This document shows positions 9,901-49,568 of a DNA stretch of 64,000 bases, in pieces. Source of the DNA: Leifsonia shinshuensis (GTDB taxonomy: Bacteria > Actinomycetota > Actinomycetes > Actinomycetales > Microbacteriaceae); assembly GCF_022606355.1 (NCBI RefSeq), contig NZ_JAHHZQ010000001.1, forward strand, positions 806,001-870,000, read 5' to 3'. How positions within the stretch are numbered: position 1 is the stretch's first letter; each line of letters begins with the position of its first letter. A program made the translations under genes and the position numbers. A model generated the notes under the pieces. The model ran no database searches. It was not told the DNA's origin and was given only the letters and a program-made list of their open reading frames with translations.

Positions 9901-12333
9901 CTACGCCTGCGCCCGCTCCTGGCGGCGCACCGCAGGGATGCCCGACACCATCGGCGTGAGCAGCCCCACGGCGAGCGCGATCACGACGCCCACGTTGCTC
10001 GCGCCGATCCCCGCGTGCGGGTCGACGCCCAGCGTCCGGAAGAGATAGCCCTCCCACGCGAGCCACGGCAGCGACGAGCTCACGAAGCCGAGTCCCAGCG
10101 CGCTGGCGACGACCAGCATTGCGAGGTTGGGCCAGCGCCAGTCCGGGTACACGCCACCGCGGGTCAGCAGCGACGGCTGGTGGAACCTGCGGGTGCGCAG
10201 CATCATCTCCCCGGTGAACAGCCCCGCCCAGGCCGCCACCGGGACGGCGAGGGTGGTGGGGACGCCGCGCACGACATCGTCGAGGTCGCGCACCGTGAGC
10301 GTCAGCGCGACCCCGGCGACGGCGATGGCGCCCGCCACGATCACGGTGCTCCACCGCCTCCCGAGCCGGACGCCGAGCGCATCCAGGGTGAAGCCTCCCG
10401 AGTACATGGTCAGCACGAGCGCCGAGATCAGGCTGAGACCGACCGCGAGCAGCAGCGGCACCGGATACCAGGCCGGCAGCCCGAGACGGGTGAGCCCGGC
10501 GACCGGATCGCGCGCGATGTCGGCGGCCAGCGACGGATCGGAGGCGGCGAGCAGTCCGCCGTAGGAGACCAGGACGAACGGCGGCACACCGGCTCCGAAG
10601 GTCGCCCACAGCATGCCGGCCGCGCCGGACGACTTCGGGCGCTGATAGCGTGCGACCTCTGCGCTGCTCATCGCCCAGGCCAGGCCGACATAGCTGAAGA
10701 CCAGCACGGCTCCCGTGACGACGTGCGTCCAGACAGCATCGGGCACGCCGAGCGCGCGCGTCAGGTCGACGTGCCGCCAGGTGGCGGCGATCATCACGAC
10801 GATCAGCACCGCGGACGCGATCGTCAGCACCAGCTGCACGCGCGCGAGCAGCCCGTAGCCGAAGTAGGCGACGACCCCGGCGACGGCCACGGTGACCAGG
10901 AGCGCGAACGTCGTCGGCCCGACGCCGAGCTGCGACCAGCCGCCGGCGATGGCGACGGACCCGGTCGCCGCCGCAGCCAGCCACAGCAGCACCGCCCCCC
11001 AGAACACCTTGGTCACGAGGGCGAGCGCGGTCGGCACGGCGTTGCCGAGCAGACCGAAAGCGGCACGGGAGACGACCATCGTCGGCTGCCCGCTCCACTT
11101 GCCGGCCAGGGTGCCCAATCCCAGCGGGAGGAACGACAGCGCGACGCCGACGAGTGTGGCCACGAGCAGCTGCCGGAGGCTGAGCCCGAGCAGGAACAGC
11201 GTTGCGCCGACGCCGATGCTGATGAGCGAGGACGTGCCGGCGAACCACAGCCAGAACAGCCGGGACGCCCGCCCGGCCCGCTGCTCCAGCGGGGTCGGCT
11301 CCAGGTCGGCCGTCTCCGGCACGAACGGCGGGGGCTGCGCCGGAGGCGCACCGAAGAGCACGGAGCCGTCGGGCAGGCGCGGCGTCGCCACCGGTGTGGG
11401 AGCGCCGGCCCGCACGTCGTCGGCGTCGTCGGCGACATCCCCGTCGATGTGGTCGGGCCTGGCCGTCGTCGCACCGAGGTCGTGGGCGACCAGCGGCTCC
11501 TGCGCCGCGAGCAGAACGACCACCGGCGCGGAGGGCAGGACGTCCGAGATCAGCGGGACGGGCTGGGAGTCGCGCGGAGCGAACTCCTCGGGGACGAGCC
11601 CGAGCGGCTCGACCCGCGCGGGAGTCGACGTGTCGGCGGGGGGCTCGGACTCCCGGCCGGCCGCGGGCGACTCCATAGCGACAGCGGGGAACTTCGGGGG
11701 TGAGACGTCCTCCGCGACCGCTGCCGGGGGTGCGGGAGGCGGCGGCGGTTTCGGCGGCGTCGGTTTCGGCTGCGGAACGGCCGCGCCGACCCACGCGCTG
11801 TAGGTCGGCTGCGGTCCCGTGTCCCGCTTCCGCACAGGGAGGTCGTCGAAGCTGATCAGCTGCGTCGGCGGGCCGGCCCAGTCATCCTCGTCCTCGTCCT
11901 CGTCGTCGGCGCCCGAGTCCGCGTCGGGCTCGTCGGCAACCGGCTTGTCCGCAACGGGCGTTTCAGCGACGGGCGTGCCGGCAACGGGAGCCGCGGTGAC
12001 CTCTGCGGCGCGCGGCTCGGCCTCCCGCACCCGCTCCTCCGTCCCGACCACCGGGATGGATGAGGTCGCCGCCCTGGCGTCCAGCACCGACTGCAGGTGC
12101 GCGATCGCCGCGGTCGTATCGTGGATCCTCAGGTCGGCGTCCACGATGGCGGTGACCTCGTCGTCGCTGAGCGCGGCGGCGTCGGGCCGCACCACCGTCG
12201 GCCCCGCGATGATCGGGACCGCTGCAGTGACGCGATCCACCTCGGCCTGCAGGGCGTCGGCCAGCTCGTCGTCGCTGTGGCGGATCCTGCGGTCCGGCTC
12301 GGCGACGCCCTCCCCATCAACGCCATCGGCCAT
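9901..12333 (-). CDS. NCS1-type (purine/cytosine permease-like) transporter with long disordered N-terminus
   Basis: 810 residues. Residues about 359-805 are a 12-helix permease resembling nucleobase:cation symporter-1 proteins ([57 protein letters not shown]). Residues 1-358 have no recognisable domain: helical start, VAxxP repeats (114-135), an acidic run (DDEDEDEDD, 143-151), a [10 protein letters not shown] stretch and many Pro/Ala/Asp residues. Family members are usually near 450-500 residues. The substrate is unknown and the extension may be a cytoplasmic interaction or regulatory tail. ATG at 12333 has TAGGCT 6 nt upstream; identical ATG contexts recur at 12392 and 12451. Confidence 0.8.
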
Positions 12334-12494
12334 GCTCGAAGCCTACGACGGGAACATCCTCCAGGTCAGGGGTCAACAACGCCATCGGCCATGCTCGAAG
12401 CCTACGACGGGAACATCCTCCAGGTCAGGGGTCAACAACGCCATCCGCCATGCTCGACGCCCACGACGGGAAGGTCGGGCGGGTCAGGGGTCAT
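12318..12494 (-). repeat. Three tandem 59-bp units duplicating the NCS1 gene start region
   Basis: Units begin at about 12318, 12377 and 12436; the first two are nearly identical and the third is diverged. Read on the minus strand each unit has ATGGCSGATGGCGTTG and a TAGGCT-like hexamer just before the next ATG. The two upstream copies therefore carry their own start codon and encode an 8-residue peptide MADGVVDP before TGA, while the copy nearest the gene continues into the permease. Units also contain TTGACC and GGAGG. Confidence 0.85.
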
Positions 12495-29998: not shown

Positions 29999-31432
29999 TC
30001 AGCTCTCCCGGCGGTTCAGCCGCGCCAACAGCAGGGCCTCGGCGAGAATCGCCCGCTTGAACACCCCCAGGTGCAGCGACTCGTTCGGGCTGTGCGCGCG
30101 GGTGTCCGGGTCCTCGACGCCGGTCACCAGGATCTGCGCCTCCGGGAACTCGCGCACGAGGTCGGCGATGAACGGGATCGACCCGCCGACGCCGGTCTCG
30201 ACGGCGTCCTTCCCCCAGGCGTCGGCCATGGCCTGCTTCGCCTCCGTCGCGGCCCAGCCGGCCGTGTCGACCAGGAACGCGTCGCCGGTGTCGATGTCGC
30301 TGATCTCGACGTGCGCGCCGAAGGGGGCGTTCGCGCGCAGGTGGCGCTCGAGGGCCGCGTAGGCCTCGGAGGCCGGCTGCCCCGGCGCGACGCGGGCGCT
30401 CAGGCGAACCGCCACGCTGGGGAGCAGGGTGTTGGAGGCGTCGACGACGCTCGGCGCGTCGATGCCGGTGATCGTGACGGTCGGCTGCGACCACATCCGC
30501 GACAGGATCGGCCCTGTCCCGATCGGGGTCACGCCGGGCAGCAGCGCGGCCTCTTCGCGGAACTGCTCGTCGCTCAGCGCCGGCGGCTCCGCTGCGTCGT
30601 CGTGCGAACGAAGGCCGTCGACCGCGACGGAGCCGTTCTCATCGTGCAGCGTCGCCAGCAGGGCGACGAGGGCGAGCATCGCGTCGGGCGCCGCTCCCCC
30701 GTACATCCCGGAGTGCGAGGCGTGCTCGAGCGTGGAGACGGTGAGCTTGAAGGTCACGTTGCCGCGCAGGGAGACCGTGAGGGCCGGGGTGTCGACGTCC
30801 ACATTGTCGGAGTCGGCGACCACGATGACATCCGCCGCCAGCGCCGCCTTGTTCTGTTCCAGGAAGTTGGCGAACGAGCGCGAGCCGAACTCCTCCTCGC
30901 CCTCGATGAAGACCGCGAGCCCCAGGTCGAAGTCGGGCCCGAGCGCCTCCACCAGTGCGCGCACGCTGGCCACGTGCGACATCACGCCCGCCTTGTCGTC
31001 GGCTGCTCCCCGCCCGTAGAGGCGGTCGCCGCGCACCGTCGGCTCGAACGGAGGGGTGTCCCAGTTCGCGGCGTCGCCCTGCGGCTGCACGTCGTGGTGG
31101 GCGTAGAGCAGGACTGTGGGGCGACCGTTCTTCGCGGCGCGGGTCGCGAGCACGGCAGGCTGGCCGAGGGTCTCCCCCGCGATCGGCGCCTGCTTCACCT
31201 CCACGGTCTCGAACGCGCCGGTCTCACGCAGCAGACCCGCGACGGCGTCGGCGCTCGCACGGACGTTGGCGGGGTCGTAGGCCGTCCACGACACGGACGG
31301 GATGCGCACCAGACGCGAGAGCTCGGCGATCGTGGAGGGCAGGCCCGCCTCGACGGCGGAACGGACGCGCGCTTCGGCGTCGGCGTCCGCACCTGCGATT
31401 CGGCCGGAAGGAGTCTGCTGGGAGTCTGTCAT
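29999..31432 (-). CDS. M20-family dipeptidase
   Basis: Zinc-dependent cytosolic dipeptidase of the ArgE/DapE/CPG2 group. 477 residues; metal-site motifs VLLYAHHDVQPQG, YGRGAADDKAGV (bridging Asp) and the catalytic IEGEEEFGS, with the dimerisation domain VTFKLTVSTLEHASHSGMYGG and the C-terminal THR-AHSPNESLHLG region. Start ATG 31432 opens right at conserved sequence; a -10-like TAATCT of the divergent DUF3043 gene lies beside it. Exact substrate unknown. Confidence 0.9.
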   Translation of the reverse strand: MTDSQQTPSGRIAGADADAEARVRSAVEAGLPSTIAELSRLVRIPSVSWTAYDPANVRASADAVAGLLRETGAFETVEVKQAPIAGETLGQPAVLATRAAKNGRPTVLLYAHHDVQPQGDAANWDTPPFEPTVRGDRLYGRGAADDKAGVMSHVASVRALVEALGPDFDLGLAVFIEGEEEFGSRSFANFLEQNKAALAADVIVVADSDNVDVDTPALTVSLRGNVTFKLTVSTLEHASHSGMYGGAAPDAMLALVALLATLHDENGSVAVDGLRSHDDAAEPPALSDEQFREEAALLPGVTPIGTGPILSRMWSQPTVTITGIDAPSVVDASNTLLPSVAVRLSARVAPGQPASEAYAALERHLRANAPFGAHVEISDIDTGDAFLVDTAGWAATEAKQAMADAWGKDAVETGVGGSIPFIADLVREFPEAQILVTGVEDPDTRAHSPNESLHLGVFKRAILAEALLLARLNRRES

Positions 31433-31474
31433 GCGGGTAATCTTAAACGGACCCCTGAAACGAAGGCGCAAGCG

Positions 31475-32071
31475 TTGGCGAAACGACAGAACCCGGCGGC
31501 CGAGGCGGAGACGCCCGCCGTCGAGACCCCCGAAGAGACCGCGGCCCGGCTCACGCAGGGCAAGGGCGCCCCCACGCCCACCCGACGTGAGCAGGAGGCC
31601 GCCCGCAAGCGGCCCCTGGTGCCCACCGACCGCAAAGAGGCGGCTCGTGCGGCGCGCAGCAAGCAGGCCGAGGCACGCGAGAAGGCCCGCATCGGCATGG
31701 CGGCGGGCGACGAGCGCTACCTGACCGCCCGCGACCGCGGGCAGCAGCGACGCTATGTGCGCGACTACGTCGACGCGCGCTTCAGCATCGGCGAGTTCCT
31801 CATCCCCGTCATGCTGCTCGTGATCGTGCTGAGCTTCCTCCCGTGGCAGTTCATGCAGCTCTGGGGCCTGGTCGCACTGTGGGCGTTCTTCCTGATCGCG
31901 GTCATCGACTGCATCGTGCTCGGCTTCACGGTCACCAGGAAGATCGGCGACAAGTTCGGCAAGACCAAGGTCGAGCGCGGCCTGAAGTGGTACGCGGCCA
32001 TGCGTGCGCTGCAGCTGCGCGTCATGCGCCTCCCCAAGCCGCAGGTCAAGCGCGGCCACTTCCCCAGCTGA
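31475..32071 (+). CDS. DUF3043 membrane protein
   Basis: 198 residues: charged N-terminus rich in E, T, P, R, K (1-95; KGAPTPTRREQEAARKRPLVPTDRKEAARAARSKQAE is the family signature), then YVRDYVDARFSIGEFLIPVMLLVIVLSF with two TM helices and a basic C-terminus. The DUF3043 family is actinobacterial and of unknown function. The only plausible start is TTG at 31475, giving LAKRQNP like the MAKRQ opening of relatives, preceded by GAAGGCG. One base separates it from the RNase HI gene. Confidence 0.8.
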   Translation: MAKRQNPAAEAETPAVETPEETAARLTQGKGAPTPTRREQEAARKRPLVPTDRKEAARAARSKQAEAREKARIGMAAGDERYLTARDRGQQRRYVRDYVDARFSIGEFLIPVMLLVIVLSFLPWQFMQLWGLVALWAFFLIAVIDCIVLGFTVTRKIGDKFGKTKVERGLKWYAAMRALQLRVMRLPKPQVKRGHFPS

Positions 32072-32072
32072 C

Positions 32073-33011
32073 GTGGCGATCGTCGCAGCGGCGGACGGCT
32101 CCGCCCTCGGTAACCCCGGTCCGGCCGGCTGGGCCTGGTACGTCGACGACGACCATTGGTCGGCGGGCGGCTGGCCGCACGGCACCAACAACATGGGCGA
32201 GCTCATGGCGGTCATCGACCTCCTGGAGTCCACCGCCCACGTCGACGACGATCTGCGCATCCTGTGCGACAGCCAGTACGTGATCAACTCGGTCACCAAG
32301 TGGATGCCGGGCTGGAAGCGCAAAGGCTGGCGCAAGTCCGACGGCTCGCCGGTGCTCAACCGCGAGCTCCTGGAACGCCTGGATCGCGCGCTCCAGGGCC
32401 GCCGCTACACCTTCGAGTGGGTCAAGGGCCATGCCGGCCACGACCTCAACGAGGCGGCGGACCAGCGTGCGCGGGCCGCCGCCACCGCCTACCGCGACGA
32501 CGACGCGATTCCGATCGGCCCGGGCTGGCCGGGGGCCGCGGTCCACGAGCCTGCGCCCGCCCTCGCCGTCGCCGAACCGGTCGCGCCGAGCGTCGCACCG
32601 GCCGCGCCTGCCGCGCCTGCTGCCACCAGCGTCGAGTTCGATCTGTTCGACGACCTCCTGAGCGCCGCCGAGAGCGACGAGGAGGTCGTCCGCCGCCTGG
32701 AACGCGAGCTCATCGACCCGGCGGTCCGGTCCGATGCGGCCCGTGTGGCGGCTCTGCTCCACCCCGAGTTCGAGGAGATCGGCCGTTCGGGCACGCTGTG
32801 GGGACGGGACGCGATCCTCGAGGCGTTGGCCGAAGAGGACTCCCCCGCCGCCGAACTCGCCATCCTCGGAACCGAGCGCATCGGCGCTGACGCGATCCTG
32901 CTCACCGCGCGCACGGTCGATGAGCGCGGAGCCAGCCTGCGCAGCTCGCTGTGGCTGCGCAGCAGCGGCCGGTGGCGCCTACGCTTCCACCAGGGCACGC
33001 CGGAGGCGTAG
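32073..33011 (+). CDS. Ribonuclease HI fused to a C-terminal NTF2-like (DUF4440-type) domain
   Basis: Residues 1-140 are an RNase HI that cuts RNA in RNA-DNA hybrids: catalytic D8 (AAADGSALGNPGPAGW), E43 (NNMGELMAV), D66 (LCDSQYVI) and D130 (NEAADQRAR), plus WMPGWKRKGWRKSDGSPV. A Pro/Ala linker (165-205) leads to a domain about 215-312 with RLERELIDPAVRSDAARVAALLHPEFEEIGRSG and LWLRSSGRWRLRFHQGTP, typical of DUF4440/SnoaL-like small-molecule or protein-binding folds. GTG start one base after the DUF3043 stop. Its last 33 bp overlap pyrD. Confidence 0.88.
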   Translation: MAIVAAADGSALGNPGPAGWAWYVDDDHWSAGGWPHGTNNMGELMAVIDLLESTAHVDDDLRILCDSQYVINSVTKWMPGWKRKGWRKSDGSPVLNRELLERLDRALQGRRYTFEWVKGHAGHDLNEAADQRARAAATAYRDDDAIPIGPGWPGAAVHEPAPALAVAEPVAPSVAPAAPAAPAATSVEFDLFDDLLSAAESDEEVVRRLERELIDPAVRSDAARVAALLHPEFEEIGRSGTLWGRDAILEALAEEDSPAAELAILGTERIGADAILLTARTVDERGASLRSSLWLRSSGRWRLRFHQGTPEA

Positions 33012-34022
33012 CAGCCCCGCGTTGATCTGCCGCGCCCAGAGCGGGCCGCGGTAGAGGAACGCCGTATAGCCCTGCACGAGGGTGGCGCCCGCGTCGAGCC
33101 GACGCTGCACGTCCTCCGCGGTCTCCACACCGCCGACCGAGATGACGCACAGCTCCGCGGGCACGTGCGCGCGGATCAGCCGGAGCACCTCGAGCGACCG
33201 GGCGGCCAGCGGAGCGCCGGAGAGTCCGCCGGCGCCCGCGGCCTCCACCACGGCCCGATCGGTCGTCAGGCCGTCGCGCGAGATGGTGGTGTTCGTCGCG
33301 ATGATGCCCGCGAGTCCCAGCTCGACGGCCAGCCCCGCGATCTTCTCCACCTGCTCGTCGGTCAGGTCGGGTGCGATCTTGACCAGCAGCGGCGTCGAGC
33401 CGGCGACCTCCTTCACCGCGGTCAGCAGCGGCGCGAGGAGTTCGAGCTCCTGGAGGCCGCGCAGACCGGGCGTGTTCGGCGAGCTGACGTTCACGACCAG
33501 GTAGTCGGCGACCGGGGCGAGGGCGCGGGCGCTCGTCAGGTAGTCCTGGGTGGCGTCCTCGACGGCGACGACGCGGCTCTTGCCGATGTTCACCCCGAGC
33601 ACCGGCCGCTGCCGGGCGCGCCGCACCTTCAGGAGACGGTTGGCCGCGTCGCCGGCGCCGTGGTTGTTGAAGCCCATCCGGTTGATCACCGCGCGGTCCG
33701 GGATCAGCCGGAAGAGTCGCGGCCGGTCGTTGCCGGGCTGGGCGAGCGCAGTGATGGTTCCGACCTCGACGTGCCCGAACCCGAGGTCGCCGAGCCCGAT
33801 CACGGCCTCTCCGTCTTTGTCGAAGCCGGCCGCGATGCCGAAGGGCGATGCGAACCGCAGCCCGAGCGCCTCCACGGCGAGCGAGGGGTCGGGCGCTGTG
33901 AAGCGGCGGACCAGGCCGCCCAGCCCGAGGGTGGGGAGGGCGCGGATCACCAGGAATGCGAGGTGGTGGGCGCGCTCGGGGTCGAACTTCGACAGGACGA
34001 GGGAGAAGAGTGTGCGATACAT
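32979..34022 (-). CDS. pyrD: Dihydroorotate dehydrogenase (quinone), class 2
   Basis: Fourth step of pyrimidine synthesis, coupled to menaquinone at the membrane. 347 residues: N-terminal membrane-associating helices (MYRTLFSLVLSKFDPERAHHLAFL), FMN site ASPFGIAAGFDKDGEA, VNVSSPNTPGLRGLQ, NTTISRD and GVETAEDVQRRLDAGATLVQGYTAFLYRGP; the catalytic base is the Ser of the NVSSPNTP region, as in class 2. ATG 34022 directly follows a repeat-rich gap (34041-34236). Converges on and overlaps the RNase HI gene. Confidence 0.95.
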   Translation of the reverse strand: MYRTLFSLVLSKFDPERAHHLAFLVIRALPTLGLGGLVRRFTAPDPSLAVEALGLRFASPFGIAAGFDKDGEAVIGLGDLGFGHVEVGTITALAQPGNDRPRLFRLIPDRAVINRMGFNNHGAGDAANRLLKVRRARQRPVLGVNIGKSRVVAVEDATQDYLTSARALAPVADYLVVNVSSPNTPGLRGLQELELLAPLLTAVKEVAGSTPLLVKIAPDLTDEQVEKIAGLAVELGLAGIIATNTTISRDGLTTDRAVVEAAGAGGLSGAPLAARSLEVLRLIRAHVPAELCVISVGGVETAEDVQRRLDAGATLVQGYTAFLYRGPLWARQINAGLLRLRRALVEA

Positions 34023-34040
34023 GCCGGTACGAGAATACCG

Positions 34041-34236
34041 CGCGCGGTGGAGCTGAGGGCAGCGCGCAGCGATGCCGCGACCCCAGCGCCGCGCGGTGGA
34101 GCTCAGGGCAGCGCGCAGCGATGACGCGACCCCAGCGCCGAGGGAGCCTGCGACCGAGGGCCGGAGCCTGCGACCGAGGGCCGGAGCCTGCGACCGAGGT
34201 TCAGCGGAACAGCGCGAGGAATCGAGCTCGGTGGAG
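34041..34236. repeat. Repeat element block 1 (nrdR-pyrD gap)
   Basis: Contains two direct copies of a 49-bp unit (starting near 34041 and 34090; GGTGGAGCT at 34046 and 34095) followed by a 20-bp unit (GCCTGCGACCGAGGGCCGGA) at 34146, 34166 and 34186, the last one degenerate. The block ends at the nrdR stop with another GGTGGAGCT. Same units and order occur in block 2 across nrdR. Confidence 0.85.
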
Positions 34237-34710
34237 CTACCCCTCCACCTCCACGGGCTCAGCATGGTGCTCGATGCGCAGCTGCTGGATGGCCGACTCG
34301 AAGTCTTCGAGGGAGTCGAACGCCTGGTAGACGCTCGCGAAACGCAGGTAGGCGACCTCGTCGAGCTCGCGGAGTTCGGGGAGGATCGCGAGGCCGATGT
34401 CGTTGGCCTCGATCTGGGAGGCGCCCGTCGAGCGGATCGTCTCCTCCACCTTCTGGGCCAGTACGGCGAGGTCGGAGTCGGTCACCGGGCGGCCCTGGCA
34501 GGCCTTGCGGACGCCGAGCACGATCTTCTCCCGGCTGAACGGCTCGACCACGCCGCTGCGCTTGATGACGCTGAGGCTCGCGGTCTCGGTGGTCGAGAAG
34601 CGGCGACCGCACTCCGGGCACTGCCGACGCCGCCGGATCGAGAGCCCGTCGTCGCTCGTGCGCGAGTCGATGACGCGTGAGTCCGGGTGGCGGCAGAAGG
34701 GGCAGAACAT
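34237..34710 (-). CDS. nrdR: Transcriptional repressor NrdR
   Basis: ATP/dATP-sensing repressor of ribonucleotide reductase genes. 157 residues: zinc ribbon [15 protein letters not shown]...[10 protein letters not shown] (residues 3-35), then the ATP-cone (about 46-136) with [23 protein letters not shown]. The usual start is confirmed by MFCPFC, with TAGGAT 7 nt upstream on the minus strand and no SD. It is the only coding sequence between two copies of the same repeat element. Confidence 0.95.
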
Positions 34711-34717
34711 GGGAGAA

Positions 34718-34723
34718 ATCCTA
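34718..34723 (-). promoter_or_regulatory. -10-like hexamer of nrdR
   Basis: TAGGAT on the minus strand followed by 7 nt and the ATG; leaderless candidate lying between repeat block 2 and the gene. Confidence 0.4.
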
Positions 34724-34730
34724 CCGCGAG

Positions 34731-34937
34731 GCGGAGCTCGGGCAGCGCGGAGCGCGCGGTGGAGCTCAGGGGCAGCGCGAAGCGATGCCGCGACCCCAGC
34801 GCCGAGGGAGCCTGCGACCGAGGGCCGGAGCCTGCGACCGAGGGCCGGAGCCTGCGACCGAGGGCCGGAGCCTGCGACCGAGGGCCGGAGCCTGCGACCG
34901 AGGGCCCAATCCCAACCACAGCGCCGCGCGGTGGAGC
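34731..34937. repeat. Repeat element block 2 (hisD-nrdR gap)
   Basis: One copy of the 49-bp unit (about 34753-34803), then five exact or near-exact copies of the 20-bp unit at 34810, 34830, 34850, 34870 and 34890, then a partial 49-bp-unit end (GCGCGGTGGAGCTC) touching the hisD stop at 34938. Block 1 has only three 20-bp copies, so the number varies like a VNTR. Confidence 0.85.
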
Positions 34938-36242
34938 TCACGCGAAGCGGATCGTCACCGCTTCGCCGTGCGCGGGGAGGTCTTCCGCCGAGGAGAGCGC
35001 CACGATGCGGTCGGCGACCGTGCGCAGGGCCTCCCGGTCGTAGCGGATCACCTGCTGGGGCCGGAGGAAGGAGTACGCGCCGAGGCCGGGCGAGAACCTG
35101 GCCTGGCCGCCGGTCGGCAGAACGTGGTTGGAGCCGGCGAGGTAGTCGCCGAGGCTGACAGGGGCGGTCGGGCCGACGAAGATCGCGCCGGCATTCTGGA
35201 TGAGCGCGAGCACTGCATCCGGGTCGGCCGTCTGCAGCTCGAGGTGCTCCGGGCCGTAGGCGTTGCTGAACGCGGCGGCGGCGGCGAGGTCGTCGACGAG
35301 CACGATCGCCGACTGCTGTCCGCCGAGCGCCGTGCGCACCCGCTCCGCGTGCTTGGTGGCGCCGGCGAGCGCCTCCAGTTCGGCGGTCACGCGGTCGGCG
35401 AAGGCCGGGCTGTCGGTGACGAGCAGGGAGGCCGCGGCCTCGTCGTGCTCCGCCTGGCTGATGAGGTCGGCGGCGACGTATCGCGCATCGGCGGCATCGT
35501 CGGCGATCACGAGGATCTCGGTGGTCCCGGCCTCCGAGTCGATGCCGGTCTGGCCGCGGACGAGGCGCTTGGCGGCGGCGACGTAGATGTTGCCGGGACC
35601 GGTGATGACCTGGACGGGGTCGAGGCCGATGTCCTCCACGCCGTAGGCCAACGCTCCGATCGCGCCGGCGCCTCCCATCGCGTAGACCTCGTCGATGCCC
35701 AGCAGACCCGCGGCACCGAGGATGGTCGGGTGCACCGCTCCGCCGAACTCGCGCTGCGGCGGGCTCGCCAGGGCGATGGAGGAGACGCCCGCGACTTGGG
35801 CGGGGACCGCGTTCATGACGACGCTCGACGGGTACACCGCCTTGCCGCCCGGAACGTAGAGGCCGGCGCGCTCGACCGGTTGCCAGCGCTGCACGATCGT
35901 CGCACCGGGCCCGATCGCGGTCTCGGCGGCCGGAGGCACCTGAACGGCGGTCGCCTGGCGCACGCGCACGATCGCCTCCTCGAGCGCCGCGCGCACGTCG
36001 GGCGCGAGGGCGTCGACGGCGGCGGCGATGTCGGCGGCGGGAACGCGGATCGATGCGGGTGCCCCGCCGTCGAACTTCTCCGCCTGCTCGGCGAGCGCCA
36101 CCGCTCCGCGGGTCCGCACCTCATGGATCAACTCGTCGGCGACTGTCATCGCGACCCGGACGTCGACGACGGGACGGGGGACGAGCCGCTCGAAGGCGGC
36201 GCGGGTAGGCTGGACTCCGCGGAGATCGATGGTGTTCATCAT
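34938..36242 (-). CDS. hisD: Histidinol dehydrogenase
   Basis: Last two oxidations of histidine synthesis, histidinol to histidine, NAD-dependent with a catalytic zinc. 434 residues; [71 protein letters not shown] and the closing [15 protein letters not shown] are conserved HisD segments. Two adjacent ATG codons (36242 and 36239) are possible starts. No other his gene is adjacent. The stop opens directly into repeat block 2. Confidence 0.95.
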
Positions 36243-36318
36243 GGCCGTTCCAGCCTATCCGCTCCCGACCCCTCCCCCTTCGGGAATCCCCCGCGCCGAA
36301 CGGTACTTCTTAACCTGT

Positions 36319-36825
36319 ATGAACGATGCGACGACCGACCGCACTCCCGACCTCTCCGCGTTCCGTCAGGCTTTCCGCCGGCACGCAGCCGGCGTGGCCA
36401 TCGTGACCGCCCAGACGGCCGACGGCACCCCGGTCGGCTTCACCGCCACGTCGCTCGCGTCGCTCGCGGCGGTCCCCCCGCTGGCGACCTTCAACATGGC
36501 GCTCTCGGCGTCGAGCTGGCCCGCGCTCCTGGAGACCGACCGCGTCGTCATCCACATGCTCGGCGTCCGCAACAAGGGGGTCGCCGAGATCCTCTCGGCC
36601 GACAACTCGCAGCGCTTCCTGGGTGACCACTGGCACCGCGGGCCGCACGGCCTGCCCGTCATCAACGACGTCACGTCGTGGATGGTCGGGCGCATCGTCG
36701 AGCGCTTCCCCGTGCACAACAGCGCGGTGGTCGTCGTGCAGATCGAGCAGGGCGAGCTCGGCGAGCCCGACGAGCCGCTGCTCTACCACGAGCGCCGCTA
36801 CCACCGGCCCAGCGAGCTCGACTGA
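36319..36825 (+). CDS. Flavin reductase-like FMN-binding protein
   Basis: 168 residues of the flavin reductase (FMN_red/HpaC) fold: FRQAFRRHAAGVAIVTAQTADGTPVGFTATSLASLAAVPPLATFNM is the flavin-binding start, and FPVHNSAVVVVQIEQGEL...LLYHERRYHR the C-terminal half. Such proteins use NAD(P)H to supply reduced flavin to a monooxygenase; no partner monooxygenase is adjacent, so the role is open. Start ATG 36319; earlier in-frame sequence belongs to the hisD antisense region. Confidence 0.85.
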   Translation: MNDATTDRTPDLSAFRQAFRRHAAGVAIVTAQTADGTPVGFTATSLASLAAVPPLATFNMALSASSWPALLETDRVVIHMLGVRNKGVAEILSADNSQRFLGDHWHRGPHGLPVINDVTSWMVGRIVERFPVHNSAVVVVQIEQGELGEPDEPLLYHERRYHRPSELD

Positions 36826-36841
36826 GCGCGCGGCTGAGCAC

Positions 36842-36902
36842 GCGCATTCGTCACGAATATCGACTTTCGTGGCACGAATGTCGGCATTCGTGACGAATGC
36901 GC
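36842..36902. repeat. 61-bp nested palindrome with three ATTCGTnACGAAT-type sites at 20-bp spacing
   Basis: Whole segment is a near-perfect palindrome centred on 36872 (three mismatched pairs). Inside, three smaller dyads are centred on 36852, 36872 and 36892, exactly 20 bp apart (36846-36858, 36866-36878, 36886-36898). It lies between the stops of the convergent flavin reductase and dnaE genes, so a bidirectional terminator is one reading; the helical spacing also resembles an operator array. Confidence 0.8.
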
Positions 36903-36906
36903 CGAG

Positions 36907-39900
36907 CTACACCAGGCAGTTCGGGCCGAGGAGGCCCTTGAGCTCGCCGTAGAGGTCGGGCGACAGCTTGACGTGATAGCGCGGGAGGTTCTGGACGCGC
37001 ATGACTCCGCCGTCGATCAGGCCGAGCTTCACCTCGTTCTGACCCTCGTGGCGGCGGAATATCTCGTCCAAGCGGTGGGCGATCTCCTCGGTGGCGCGGC
37101 GGTTCTGCACCGCGATCATCAACGTCCCGCCACCCTCGTCGACCTGGCCGAGGTCGGGCGACATGAGCGAATAGGCGTGCAGGTTCATGCCGTCGTCGCG
37201 AAGGCTCACCCGCCCGCGAGCGACGACGATGGAGTCGCTCTGCAGCATCGAGGAGTACTCCTGATACGCCTTTCCCATGAACATGACCGTGATCTCACCG
37301 CCGAAGTCCTCGACCTGGATCATCCCGTACTGGTTGCCGGAGGCCTTCGCCACCCGATGCTGCACGCTCGTGACGAGGCCGGCGATGGTCACGGTCTCAC
37401 CGTCCTGGATGTTCTCCGACGCGAGCAGGTCGGCGATCGAGGTGCTCGCGTGTTTGGCGAGCGGCAGCTCCAACCCTGCCAACGGGTGGTCGGACACGTA
37501 CAGTCCGAGCATCTCGCGCTCGAAGGCGAGCTTGGTCTTCTTGTTCCACTCCGGCCGCGGCTCGATGTAGTGCTGTGTCTGAGCCGACTCGTCCTCACCC
37601 CAGAGACTGTCGAAGTCGAACCCGATGTCGCCGTTCGCCTCATTGCGCTTGATCTTCACCGCGGACTCCACGGCCTCCTCATGCACGTTGAGGAGGGAAC
37701 TGCGCGTGTTCCCGAGCGAGTCGAACGCGCCGGCCTTGATCAGCGACTCGACCGTCCGCTTGTTCGCAGCGTGGATCGGCACCTTGCCGAGGAAGTCGTG
37801 GAACGACTCGAAGCGGCCTTTGGCCTCACGGGCCTCCCTGACGCCCTCGACGACGTTCGCACCGACGTTGCGCACCGCGCCCATACCGAAACGGATGTCC
37901 TCGCCGACGGCGGCGAAGTATAGGTTCGACTCGTTGACGTCCGGCGGAAGCACCTTGATGCCCATGCGCCGGCACTCGTTGAGGTAGAGCGCCATCTTGT
38001 CTTTGGAGTCGCCGACGCTGGTGAGCAGCGCGGCCATGTACTCCGCGGGATAGTGCGCTTTGAGGTAGGCCGTCCAGTACGAGATCACGCCGTAGGCGGC
38101 GGAGTGGGCTTTGTTGAACGCGTAATCGGAGAACGGCAGGAGGATCTCCCACAGCTTGCCGACGGCCTCCATCGAGTAGCCGCGGTCGACCATGCCCTGC
38201 GAGAAGCCCTCGAACTGCTTGTCCAGCTCGGACTTCTTCTTCTTGCCCATCGCGCGGCGCAGGATGTCGGCCTGGCCGAGCGAGAAGCCCGCCACCTTCT
38301 GCGCGATCGCCATGACCTGCTCCTGATAGATGATCAGGCCGTAGCTGGTCGAGAGGATGTCTTCCAGAGGCTCGGCGAGCTCCGGGTGGATCGGCGTGAT
38401 GTCTTGCAGGTTGTTCTTGCGCAGCGCGTAGTTGGTGTGCGAGTTCGCGCCCATGGGGCCCGGCCGGTACAGCGCGATGAGAGCCGAGATGTCCTCGAAG
38501 TTGTCGGGCTTCATCAGACGCAGCAGCGAGCGCATCGGGCCGCCGTCGAGCTGGAACACGCCGAGCGTGTCGCCGCGCGACAGGAGCTCGTAGGCCGGAC
38601 GGTCGTCGAGCTCGAGATCTTCCAGGACGAGGTTCACCCCGCGGTTGTCGCGGATGTTGTCGAGCGCGTCGTTGATGATCGTGAGGTTGCGCAGGCCCAG
38701 GAAGTCCATCTTGATCAGGCCGAGGGACTCGCACGCCGGATAGTCGAACTGGGTGACGATCTGGCCGTCCTGCTCGCGCTTCATGATCGGGATGACGTCG
38801 ATGAGCGGATCGGACGACATGATGACGCCGGCCGCGTGCACACCCCACTGGCGCTTGAGGTTCTCGAGCCCGAGCGCCGTGTCGAAGACGGTCTTGGCCT
38901 CGGGATCCGTCTCGACGACGGAGCGGATGTCGACGGCCTCCTTGTAGCGCGGGTGGTCCTTGTCGAAGATCCCGGTCAGCGGGATGTCTTTGCCCATGAC
39001 GGGCGGCGGCATCGCCTTGGTGAGCTTCTCGCCCATCGAGAACGGGAAGCCGAGGACGCGCCCGGAGTCTTTCAACGCCTGCTTGGCCTTGATGGTGCCG
39101 TAGGTGACGATCTGGGCGACACGCTCCGAGCCGTACTTCTCGGTCACGTACTTGATGACCTCGCCGCGGCGGCGGTCGTCGAAGTCGACGTCGAAGTCGG
39201 GCATGGAGACGCGGTCGGGGTTGAGGAAGCGCTCGAAGATCAGGCCGTGCTGCAGGGGGTCGAGGTCCGTGATGCGCATGGCGTACGCGGCCATCGACCC
39301 GGCGCCCGAGCCACGGCCGGGGCCGACGCGGATGCCGTTGCGCTTCGACCAGTTGATGAAGTCGGCGACGACCAGGAAGTAGCCGGGGAAGCCCATCTGC
39401 GAGATCACGCCGATCTCGTAGTCGGCCTGCTTGCGCACCTCGGGGGTGATGCCGTTCGGGTAGCGCTGCTCGAGCCCCTTCTCGACCTCCTTGACGAACC
39501 AGCTCTGCTCGTTCTCGCCCTCCGGAACCGGGAAGCGCGGCATGTAGTTGGCTGCGGTGTCGAACCTCACGTCGACGCGCTCGGCGATCGCGAGCGTGTT
39601 GTCGCACGCGTCCGGGTGGTCGCGGAAGAGCTGGCGCATCTCCTCGGGCGTCTTGAGATAGAACTCGTCGGCGTCGAACTTGAACCGGTTGGGGTCGTCG
39701 AGGGTGGAGCCGGACTGCACGCAGAGCAGGGCGGCGTGGCTCTTGGCATCGGCCGCGTGCGTGTAGTGGAGGTCGTTGGTGGCGACGAGCGGCAGGCCGA
39801 GCTCTTTCGCCAGCCGGATCAGATCGCTCATGATCCGGCGCTCGATGCCGAGCCCGTGGTCCATGATCTCGGCGAAGAAGTTCTCTTTGCCGAAGATGTC

Positions 39901-40434
39901 CCTGAACTCCGCCGCTGCCTTCTTGGCCTCGTCGTACTGCCCCAGCCGCAGGCGCGTCTGCACCTCTCCCGACGGGCACCCGGTGGTCGCGATGATGCCC
40001 TTCGAATAGCGGCTGAGCAGTTCGCGGTCCATGCGCGGCTTGAAGTAGTACCCCTCCATCGACGCGTAGGACGACAACCGGAAGAGGTTGTGCATCCCCT
40101 CGGTCGTCGCGGCGAGCATCGTCATATGCGTGTACGCGCCCGAGCCCGACACATCGTCGCCGCCGCCGTCGCCCCAGCGCACGCGCGTCTTGTCTGTGCG
40201 GTGCGTGCGCGGCGTGAGGTAGGCCTCGGTGCCGATGATCGGCTTGATGCCCGCATCGGTCGCGGTGCGCCAGAAGTCGAACGCGCCGAACATGTTGCCG
40301 TGGTCGGTGATCGCCACGGCCGGCATCCCCTGCTCGACGGCGGCCTCGATGAGCGGTTTGACGCGTGCGGCCCCGTCGAGCATCGAGTACTCGCTGTGGA
40401 CGTGGAGATGGACGAAGGAATCAGTCGAAGGCAC
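36907..40434 (-). CDS. dnaE: DNA polymerase III subunit alpha
   Basis: Replicative polymerase catalytic subunit. 1175 residues, the usual DnaE1 length. PHP domain at the N-terminus (FVHLHVHSEYSMLDG, AVAITDHGNMFGAF), C-family polymerase core with the catalytic acids in MPDFDVDFDDRRRGE and GPGRGSGAGSMAAYAM, beta-clamp binding region, HhH (LPPDVNESNLYF nearby), and OB-fold (TVTIAGLVTSVQHRVAKASGNQYGMIQVED). GTG 40434 has GGAG 6 nt upstream. The PHP metal-ligand histidines appear retained, compatible with intrinsic proofreading in actinobacteria. Confidence 0.97.
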   Translation of the reverse strand: MPSTDSFVHLHVHSEYSMLDGAARVKPLIEAAVEQGMPAVAITDHGNMFGAFDFWRTATDAGIKPIIGTEAYLTPRTHRTDKTRVRWGDGGGDDVSGSGAYTHMTMLAATTEGMHNLFRLSSYASMEGYYFKPRMDRELLSRYSKGIIATTGCPSGEVQTRLRLGQYDEAKKAAAEFRDIFGKENFFAEIMDHGLGIERRIMSDLIRLAKELGLPLVATNDLHYTHAADAKSHAALLCVQSGSTLDDPNRFKFDADEFYLKTPEEMRQLFRDHPDACDNTLAIAERVDVRFDTAANYMPRFPVPEGENEQSWFVKEVEKGLEQRYPNGITPEVRKQADYEIGVISQMGFPGYFLVVADFINWSKRNGIRVGPGRGSGAGSMAAYAMRITDLDPLQHGLIFERFLNPDRVSMPDFDVDFDDRRRGEVIKYVTEKYGSERVAQIVTYGTIKAKQALKDSGRVLGFPFSMGEKLTKAMPPPVMGKDIPLTGIFDKDHPRYKEAVDIRSVVETDPEAKTVFDTALGLENLKRQWGVHAAGVIMSSDPLIDVIPIMKREQDGQIVTQFDYPACESLGLIKMDFLGLRNLTIINDALDNIRDNRGVNLVLEDLELDDRPAYELLSRGDTLGVFQLDGGPMRSLLRLMKPDNFEDISALIALYRPGPMGANSHTNYALRKNNLQDITPIHPELAEPLEDILSTSYGLIIYQEQVMAIAQKVAGFSLGQADILRRAMGKKKKSELDKQFEGFSQGMVDRGYSMEAVGKLWEILLPFSDYAFNKAHSAAYGVISYWTAYLKAHYPAEYMAALLTSVGDSKDKMALYLNECRRMGIKVLPPDVNESNLYFAAVGEDIRFGMGAVRNVGANVVEGVREAREAKGRFESFHDFLGKVPIHAANKRTVESLIKAGAFDSLGNTRSSLLNVHEEAVESAVKIKRNEANGDIGFDFDSLWGEDESAQTQHYIEPRPEWNKKTKLAFEREMLGLYVSDHPLAGLELPLAKHASTSIADLLASENIQDGETVTIAGLVTSVQHRVAKASGNQYGMIQVEDFGGEITVMFMGKAYQEYSSMLQSDSIVVARGRVSLRDDGMNLHAYSLMSPDLGQVDEGGGTLMIAVQNRRATEEIAHRLDEIFRRHEGQNEVKLGLIDGGVMRVQNLPRYHVKLSPDLYGELKGLLGPNCLV

Positions 40435-48429: not shown

Positions 48430-48510
48430 CTCGGGATTCGGCCCAGGGCACTCCGGATCAGGTCAGCGCGCTCGGGTTCGGCCCAGGGAGCTCCGGTTCA
48501 GCTCAGCGCG
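48430..48510. repeat. Two-copy ~40-bp tandem repeat at the murG 3' end
   Basis: Copies at about 48430-48470 and 48471-48510 share CTCGGG-TTCGGCCCAGGG and CTCAGCGCG-type segments with several substitutions. The second copy overlaps the last codons of murG; the first lies in the murG-murC gap. Confidence 0.6.
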
Positions 48511-49568
48511 CTGCGGATCAGGCCGACCATCCGGTCCGAGCCGTCGCGCACGCCCGAGGTCGCGGCCTTGCGGGACATCGCGTCGACCGCCGGCCGATCG
48601 GCCAGCAGCGGAAGCAGCCGACCATCGACCCAGGACGGGACGAACTCGGCGTCGTCCACCAGGATTCCGCCTCCCGCACCGACGACACCGGCCGCGTTGA
48701 AGCGCTGCTCGCCGTTGCCGATCGGGAACGGGACATAGACCGCGGGGATGCCGAGGGCGGCGAACTCGCACACGGTCGCGGCTCCCGCCCGCGCGACGGC
48801 GAAGTCGGTCAGCGCGAACGCCAGATCCATGCGGTCGCAGTAGTCGAGGAGCCGGTAGTGCTCGATGCCGGGGTCGGTCAGCTCGCCACGGCCGCCCTGG
48901 ATGTGGAGCACCTGCCAGCCGGCCGCCGTCAGCTGCTCCGCGCGTTCGGCGATCGTACCGTTGAGGCGCCTGGCGCCGAGTGAGCCGCCCGTGACGAGCA
49001 GCGTCGGGCGGTCGTCCTCGAGCCCGAACTCGGCCAGCGCGGCCGGGCGGGCGGCTGCACGATCGAGTTCCTCGATCTCGCGCCGGAGCGGCATCCCCAC
49101 GAACCGCACGTGCGGGAGCTTGGTCCCCTCGAACGCGACACCGACCCACGGTGTGGAACGCGCGCCGAGGCGGTTCGCCAGTCCGGGCCGGGCGTTCGCC
49201 TCGTGGAGGGCGTACGGCACCTTCGCGCTGCGCGCGGCCGAGTAGGCGGGCGCTGCGGCGTAGCCTCCGAATCCGACCACCACATCGATCCCGCGATCGC
49301 GGATCAGCTCGGTCACCGATCGGACCGCTCGCCGGTACTCGCCGGGGAACCGCAGCGCGGCGCCGTTCGGCCGGCGCGGGAACGGCAGCTTCGGGATCGT
49401 CGCGAGCTCGTAGCCGCGGGCGGGCACCAGCCGGGACTCCAGCCCCTCCTTCGTGCCCAGAACGACGACCTCCGCCGCCGGGTCGTCGCGGCGCAACCGG
49501 TCGGCGACCGCCAGCAGCGGGTTGACGTGGCCGGCGGTGCCTCCGCCGGCCAGGAGGTAGCGGCTCAC
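48498..49568 (-). CDS. murG: UDP-GlcNAc:undecaprenyl-PP-MurNAc-pentapeptide GlcNAc transferase
   Basis: Converts lipid I to lipid II at the inner face of the membrane. 356 residues, GT-B fold: LAGGGTAGHVNPLLAVADRL, VVGFGGYAAAPAYSAA, HEANARPGLANRLGA, VTGGSLGARRLNG, and donor-site RAGAATVCEFAALGIPAVYVPFP. GTG 49568 overlaps the ftsW stop (GTGA). The C-terminus falls in a small tandem repeat. Confidence 0.95.
   Translation of the reverse strand: MSRYLLAGGGTAGHVNPLLAVADRLRRDDPAAEVVVLGTKEGLESRLVPARGYELATIPKLPFPRRPNGAALRFPGEYRRAVRSVTELIRDRGIDVVVGFGGYAAAPAYSAARSAKVPYALHEANARPGLANRLGARSTPWVGVAFEGTKLPHVRFVGMPLRREIEELDRAAARPAALAEFGLEDDRPTLLVTGGSLGARRLNGTIAERAEQLTAAGWQVLHIQGGRGELTDPGIEHYRLLDYCDRMDLAFALTDFAVARAGAATVCEFAALGIPAVYVPFPIGNGEQRFNAAGVVGAGGGILVDDAEFVPSWVDGRLLPLLADRPAVDAMSRKAATSGVRDGSDRMVGLIRSALS

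Follow-up and report, generated by a model that had tools for sequence, protein, structure and literature searches.

Two similar arrays of repeat units lie on either side of nrdR, the gene for the NrdR repressor, in Leifsonia shinshuensis, one in the hisD-nrdR gap and the other in the nrdR-pyrD gap. This arrangement raises the question of whether the units were copied locally from one gap to the other or belong to a wider family of elements, and, if the latter, how such an element came to occupy both sides of a single gene. We addressed this question in the window, the stretch of 64,000 nucleotides analysed here, and in sets of related genomes that each hold one genome per species. The reading that we favour, with a probability of about 0.75, is that the units form a small, non-autonomous, mobile palindromic element of a REP/RPE-like kind, which has spread through the Microbacteriaceae, and that the copies beside nrdR are insertions later grown by slippage and partly exchanged.

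Organisation of the Two Gaps

All features of the locus lie on the minus strand. The gene order is hisD (histidinol dehydrogenase; Pfam Histidinol_dh; 34938–36242) upstream, nrdR (Pfam NrdR Zn ribbon and ATP cone; 34237–34710) between the gaps, and pyrD (dihydroorotate dehydrogenase; Pfam DHO_dh; 32979–34022) downstream. Both gaps show the same succession: an CTCCACCG end that includes the upstream stop codon, 20-bp units, 49-bp units, a −10-like hexamer recognised by eye, and the next gene.

In the hisD-nrdR gap, the 3′ end of hisD reads TGAGCTCCACCG, a motif that includes the hisD TGA stop. Comparison of the two gaps identified an element 3′-end relic at 34927–34940, the first three bases of which are this stop. 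The relic is followed by an array of five 20-bp modules, each consisting of the 5′ half of hairpin H1, its loop, and a GGC linker (34807–34906; 5.0 perfect copies by Tandem Repeats Finder). The full element, with hairpins H1 and H2, spans 34755–34823 (core match G000:C1:840755-840823, from which window positions are obtained by subtracting 806000). Tandem Repeats Finder resolved the 49-bp unit into one full copy and a degenerate piece (34725–34784), and a degenerate partial H2 module (34725–34754) lies directly upstream of TAGGAT, the −10-like hexamer of nrdR as judged by eye (34723–34718).

In the nrdR-pyrD gap, the corresponding relic, TAGCTCCACCG, forms the 3′ end of nrdR (34229–34239, from the same comparison), and its first three bases are the nrdR stop codon. 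It is followed by an array of about three 20-bp modules (34143–34199; 2.8 perfect copies by Tandem Repeats Finder) and a full element with H1 and H2 (34092–34159; core match G000:C1:840092-840159). Here, the 49-bp unit occurs twice in tandem (34041–34140, 96%; Tandem Repeats Finder). The second H2 module (34043–34091) ends beside TATTCT, the −10-like hexamer of pyrD, again by eye (34037–34032).

A 94-bp stretch is common to both gaps with 98% identity. These results confirm the description in the earlier note of one arrangement repeated in both gaps on the minus strand, and the unequal numbers of 20-bp units fit the slippage that it proposed. The 49-bp unit is present on both sides, as stated there, but not as a single copy: the number of these units also differs between the gaps, since one holds two in tandem and the other a full copy with a degenerate piece. 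Allowing up to three mismatches, GCGCGGTGGAGCTNAGGG occurs seven times in the 64-kb window, against 0.99 expected, and none of 100 shuffles reached seven. Its sites within the two gaps comprise three exact matches and one with two mismatches.

Other tandem repeats were observed elsewhere in the window. A 59-bp unit is present in three tandem copies at 12318–12493 (92% matches), and a tandem 40-bp unit with a 20-bp sub-period, by eye unrelated to the element at nrdR, is located at 48430–48516.

A Core of Two Covarying Hairpins

The core of the element, about 68 bp, is composed of two adjacent hairpins, H1 in the 5′ half and H2 in the 3′ half. H1 consists of the stem CCNNNN..NNNNGG around the loop TCGCAGGCTC, which hardly varies between copies. 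The outer stem of H2, CGCTGGGG..CTCCACCGCG, is conserved; its inner stem varies and is maintained through compensatory change.

Among 88 distinct copies from other genera, two-sided change was found in 180 cells, compared with 56.4 in shuffles (0 of 500). The covariation score of this set was 0.259 versus 0.087 for shuffled copies (0 of 500), and slid partners gave at most 0.052. The counts of individual pairs in the 88 copies show the exchanges in both hairpins: in H1, pair 5-18 is GC50/CG28/AU5 and pair 6-17 is CG36/GC29/UA15; in H2, pair 38-55 is GC40/CG35/AU10/UA2/GU1. Because the model used to align these copies included H2 and not H1, the H2 counts are tilted in favour of that hairpin. 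The 30 distinct copies of the model-building set agree, with one pair of the H2 inner stem found as CG in 13, AU in 7, GC in 7 and UA in 3. The number of pair types was no higher than in shuffles in either the 30-copy or the 88-copy set.

Two H1 pairs, 3-20 and 4-19, lack pairing in 71 and 76 of the 88 copies, respectively, and some copies have full H1 stems at these columns, such as CCGC/GCGG and CCTG/CAGG. At columns 31 and 68 of alignment A4, CTGGGG..CTCCACCG and CTGGCG..CTCCAGCG vary in concert in the rows inspected, a paired change at odds with the nested H2 stem as given above. The H2 outer stem contains a G-U pair that was constant in the first set (30 of 30); in the second, it was GU in 71 and unpaired in 16 of the 88 copies. 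Its constancy in the 30-copy set would suggest that the strand as written is the one that folds.

Folding of the element strand, a check named in the earlier note, showed it to be no more stable than shuffled sequence: single-sequence folding was not better than shuffles for RNA (z = 0.76, 1.10 and −0.69 for three strands) or for DNA (z of about 1). We therefore rejected folding energy as structural evidence and relied on covariation.

Distribution in the Genome, Genus, and Family

The two-gap stretch gave 13 matches in this genome, itself included, and the 68-bp core, which combines a 20-bp and a 49-bp module, gave 19, with tandem modules counted apart. The core was found in 18 of 28 Leifsonia genomes and is identical over 68/68 positions at unrelated sites of three species. 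A search for an exact 30-mer yielded 25 stretches from GTDB genomes, all of the Microbacteriaceae (15 Leifsonia, 3 Frigoribacterium, 3 Salinibacterium, 1 Microbacterium, 1 Glaciihabitans, and 2 other Microbacteriaceae).

With a covariance model, we found the element in 94 of 398 Microbacteriaceae genomes, representing 32 of 85 genera. This search applied stricter filters and scored the 12 best candidates per genome, so genomes showing 12 copies are saturated. In a 297-genome sample of the order, four genomes matched: this one, two others of its family, and one from a different family (E = 5e-5). The suggestion in the earlier note that the units represent a repeat family is thus borne out, as both this genome and related species contain them at numerous sites.

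An Rfam search of window positions 30000–40000, with E values up to 1, returned four weak matches, none of them within the element. No match was detected among viral contigs, searched with one strict pattern, or among phages and plasmids, searched with the core, and carriage by a phage, plasmid or virus was rejected for these collections. The open-access literature searched, outside which most subscription papers lie, contained no paper on the element family. As an interspersed element of the Microbacteriaceae, it appears not to have been described before.

Empty Sites and Flanking Duplications

Orthologous loci free of the element were found at nrdR, at the L029/L049 site, and in a gene for an ATP-dependent DNA ligase (Pfam PF01068). 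Of the 28 nrdR loci compared, three have the element in the hisD-nrdR gap and five in the nrdR-pyrD gap, all eight in the same orientation; only in this genome are both gaps occupied. We recognised no flanking duplication in the nrdR gaps, and by eye the old spacer there seems to have been replaced rather than merely interrupted.

Direct duplications of about 13–43 bp flank eight of 184 distinct copies, none of them at nrdR. The scans covered 86 and 100 rows, with two copies in both, and seven of the 86 are weak or partial matches. At L104, a perfect 29-bp duplication with 24 extra bases on the 5′ side scored 29, compared with 15 for the best of 300 controls. The duplications at L205, L273, L278, L279 and L280 measure 42, 39, 43 (with mismatches), 22 and 20 bp, respectively. 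These are the five of 100 copies that, with scores of 42, 39, 34, 19 and 17, beat the best of 400 cross-pair controls, which scored 11. At L029 and L049, the duplications measure about 13 and 20 bp, with 5′ additions of 19 and 30 bases, respectively; their scores of 11 and 14 are not above those of the controls (best of 300 = 15), and the two are backed by the empty orthologs L154 and L169. The L029 site was judged in 24 of the 28 genomes.

In all eight duplicated copies, the second duplicate begins at most two bases from the end CCGCG, which makes the 3′ junction sharp, and 0–30 unexplained bases stand on the 5′ side. L205, L273 and L278, with 0, 0 and 5 extra bases, may instead reflect tandem growth of the element together with its spacer. 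Spacer and element are repeated in tandem at L278 and L273, with a period of about 118 bp at L278.

We also compared 53 separate flanks, kept from 66 after removal of likely orthologs. The core is directly preceded by A in 34 of them and directly followed by C in 47; apart from a few adjoining bases, the flanks look random. At four loci from other genera (L194, L198, L202 and L203), the element directly adjoins short GGTCGAGTAG / GGTTGAGGAG-type sequences, which are perhaps other palindromic repeats that form mosaics with it.

Shared Sites and Possible Inheritance with Loss

The most serious alternative is that the copies are old insertions inherited by descent and frequently and precisely lost, with little or no recent mobility, so that the patchy distribution reflects deletion between flanking duplications or exchange between species. 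In support of this view, 43 same-site pairs among 55 copies are more alike than others (mean of 3.1 versus 4.3 hairpin-tip differences; p = 5.8e-5, with pairs that are not independent), and L045 and L106, which occupy one site, have an unusual hairpin in common. The greater average likeness of same-site copies indicates that part of the distribution is due to inheritance with loss. As an account of the whole, it is set against core sequences that are identical between species at unrelated sites, and against the trees: in a quick tree of the nrdR locus, each occupied gap needs its own change, three for three and five for five.

The ligase site bears on both sides of this question. The gene is uninterrupted in 19 of 28 genomes; six carry the element antisense but in frame, with 69 bases each; G022 has a truncated copy in the opposite direction; one further genome has an apparent relic, recognised by eye; and G005 has no clear ortholog. 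The carriers of the insert in this ligase loop (L307 and L309–L315) are thus seven Leifsonia genomes with an in-frame copy, one of them reversed, and an eighth with a likely relic. The copies in the six genomes have identical junctions, a point in favour of inheritance. On the other side, a quick tree requires six changes for the eight carriers, with the relic and the reversed copy counted (27 of 28 genomes judged), and the ligase tree in the main follows the groups of the nrdR-locus tree rather than the insert. The six carriers do not form one clade (p-AU = 1.8e-5), a result obtained with 26 of the 28 genomes, one of them on a very long branch; G024 was missed by the search pattern, and G005 has no ortholog at this position. 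The result would still be compatible with an early insertion that was lost many times. The reversed element in G022 also speaks against simple descent. Taken together, inheritance with loss is a possible but clearly less probable account than spread of a mobile element.

Gene Context and In-Frame Copies

The element is mostly intergenic, is commoner just downstream of a co-oriented gene, and sometimes lies in frame within a gene. In 81 placements, assigned from the 86 rows with a home-made gene caller, it lies between two genes co-oriented with it in 26 and between two opposite ones in seven, in convergent gaps in eight, in divergent gaps in three, inside an open frame in 30, and without a neighbour in seven. 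The figure of 30 is an overestimate, as several are reading-frame extensions, and placements common to several species are not independent.

In addition to the ligase, in-frame copies were found in an Lhr helicase of a Salinibacterium MAG (two in tandem), in an ArsR-type regulator of this genome and in its counterpart in G016 (one each), and at L003, where a single open frame has an FAA-hydrolase domain and an RraA-like domain with two element copies between them as a linker. The label "non-coding" in the earlier note does not hold for the family in general, since some copies are translated in frame, as in the DNA ligase and Lhr.

Five of the six frames of the element consensus are open. The nrdR and pyrD reading frames extend upstream through the repeats on the minus strand (34237–34941 and 32979–34265; ORFs of 234 and 428 aa). 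The open frames of the element stretch gene predictions across the gaps in this way and are likely to be a source of wrong N-terminal extensions of NrdR and PyrD in annotation.

The placements also bear on a second alternative, in which the element is a fixed intergenic regulatory RNA or terminator/attenuator, retained because of its action on the neighbouring genes. The covariation of the hairpins agrees with such a role, as do the excess of co-oriented over opposite gene pairs (26 versus 7) and, by eye, the position of the 3′ end of nearly every copy at nrdR and pyrD near the −10, with L150 farther away. The neighbouring genes are varied, however, copies occur in convergent gaps and inside genes in both orientations, and occupancy of the same gap differs between sister species. 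Terminator function, which the earlier note had raised, was not supported: positions 33900–35000 contain no terminator-like site, and at L054 and L085 ordinary terminators, with a hairpin and a T-run, precede the element (by eye). A sigma-70 promoter consensus scan of the same region gave no site. We consider a fixed regulatory function unlikely as an explanation of the family. For the mobile element that we favour, an effect on nrdR or pyrD expression may be surmised from the position of the copies, and arrays whose length varies, placed between a stop codon and the following −10, could modulate expression and be of use as typing markers.

Relationship between the Two Gaps

The linker CGGC is present in the 20-bp arrays of both nrdR gaps and at no other locus compared, which argues for exchange between the gaps. 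The 49-bp units show other affinities. The unit of the hisD-nrdR gap is one change from the units of L004 and L005 and three from those of the nrdR-pyrD gap; of the latter, one is identical to L002 and to a unit that precedes a secG-like gene, and the other differs by two changes from both its neighbour and L002.

A local duplication or assembly accident, by which the repeat was copied from gap to gap with no wider element behind it, could explain the shared linker and the 94-bp identity, but as the sole cause it is refuted, and on the whole very improbable, given that the core recurs elsewhere in this genome and in 32 genera and that the 49-bp unit of the hisD-nrdR gap resembles units at other loci more closely than those across nrdR. 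Of the proposal in the earlier note that one element was duplicated on either side of nrdR, what holds is a likely exchange between the two 20-bp arrays, as their common linker indicates; the 49-bp units and the separate occupancy of the gaps across the 28 genomes do not agree with the rest. Judged from the sequences, two insertions followed by exchange of the small 20-bp arrays would be the simplest account of the gaps.

Possible Routes of Movement

We searched for enzymes that could mobilise the element. A RAYT transposase (Y1_Tnp, PF01797) was found in none of the 28 Leifsonia genomes, 18 of which are carriers, and in none of 18 chosen carriers of other genera, whereas five of 14 control genomes were positive; RAYT mobilisation was accordingly rejected. 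The reverse transcriptase domain PF00078 was detected in only two of the 28 Leifsonia genomes, G012 without the element and G019 with it, and mobilisation by this enzyme was likewise rejected. No autonomous partner was seen by eye among the partial core matches. Ku is present in all 28 Leifsonia genomes, and it therefore neither supports nor excludes repair-based capture.

A sequence of events can be proposed on this basis. Mobilisation or recognition would act on a folded single strand of the element; the 3′ end of this strand would be joined to a staggered break, and the gaps would then be filled in. Repair-based capture of a folded strand, we infer, fits the variable duplications and the extra bases. 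The copies flanking nrdR would represent separate insertions between a stop codon and the −10 of the next gene, which may subsequently have been enlarged by slippage within the modules while partly exchanging sequence.

A bolder version of this proposal is that the element represents a new, SINE-like kind of bacterial mobile element: a short two-hairpin unit, folded strand-specifically, with an exact 3′ join, a variable duplication of 13–43 bp, a short 5′ addition and no transposase or reverse transcriptase of its own, which moves perhaps via staggered breaks and the Ku-dependent end joining that may exist in all 28 Leifsonia genomes, and which in different lineages has come back to identical gene ends and to one and the same protein loop. 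We regard this version as speculative and rather doubtful.

Comparison with Known Repeat Systems

Several known classes of element have features in common with the one described here. A miniature derivative (MITE) of a DDE transposon is a poor match: by eye, the ends are not inverted repeats beyond a few bases, and the duplication length is not constant, varying from about 13 to 43 bp. The sharp 3′ junction, loose 5′ junction and variable duplication of the eight duplicated copies might point to a target-primed retroelement, but the cases are few and may have other causes. Integron attC sites act as folded single strands in which the ends are conserved and the tip of the hairpin varies; they undergo site-specific recombination and are not known to duplicate the target. 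By analogy, our element would resemble attC in its putative folded strand, conserved ends, and variable tip, and would differ from it in the target duplication seen at some copies.

The MIRU-VNTR loci of Mycobacterium are, in the part of PMC2734929 drawn on here, interspersed units of 40–100 bp, and a tandem array upstream of fpg1 is linked to its expression. Compared by description only, both families consist of small interspersed units of variable copy number in an actinobacterium, and the double hairpin of our element has no counterpart in that description. Rickettsia palindromic elements (RPE) are described in the available portion of PMC10969869 as elements of about 150 bp that insert in frame into unrelated protein genes. 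Our element, again compared by description only, shares this in-frame insertion but measures about 68 bp and occurs in the Microbacteriaceae instead of Rickettsia.

With the GTAG REPs and their RAYTs, as presented in the excerpted text of PMC2817692, our element shares the character of dispersed extragenic palindromes. It differs from them in the absence of a Y1_Tnp gene and in the flanking duplications at some copies, as known IS200/IS605 members make no larger target duplications according to the same excerpt. By eye, no GTAG/GGAG tag stands beside the hairpin, and the inner stem is mostly preceded by TCGC.

The nearest known kind, as far as the text at hand describes it, is that of the CGTC REPs, which include Rickettsia RPE-4/RPE-6 (Di Nocera 2013, PMC3733652). 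The words Actinobacteria, Leifsonia, Microbacterium and Clavibacter are absent from the main text of that paper. In the portion considered, CGTC REPs are single stems of 8–9 bp with loops of 4–5 nt, a CGTC-type tag and a CCA-type tail, and are found mostly in alpha-Proteobacteria. Our element differs in having two unlike hairpins in a fixed order and a 10-nt H1 loop. By eye, a CGTC (or TGTC/CCTC) tag and a CCA-type tail are absent, and the inner stem of H2, about 8 bp long with a loop of 3–4 nt, comes close to the stems described there. According to the same portion, CGTC REPs also occur inside replication and repair genes, and no dedicated transposase is reported for them. Like CGTC REPs and RPE, our element is a small palindromic repeat that lies between genes and in frame within them, including DNA ligase and Lhr, and it adds peptides to DNA-repair proteins; similarly, no dedicated transposase was found for it among the Y1_Tnp and RVT_1 domains sought. 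It offers a clear example with which to approach a question that CGTC REPs have raised, namely how palindromic repeats spread without a dedicated transposase.
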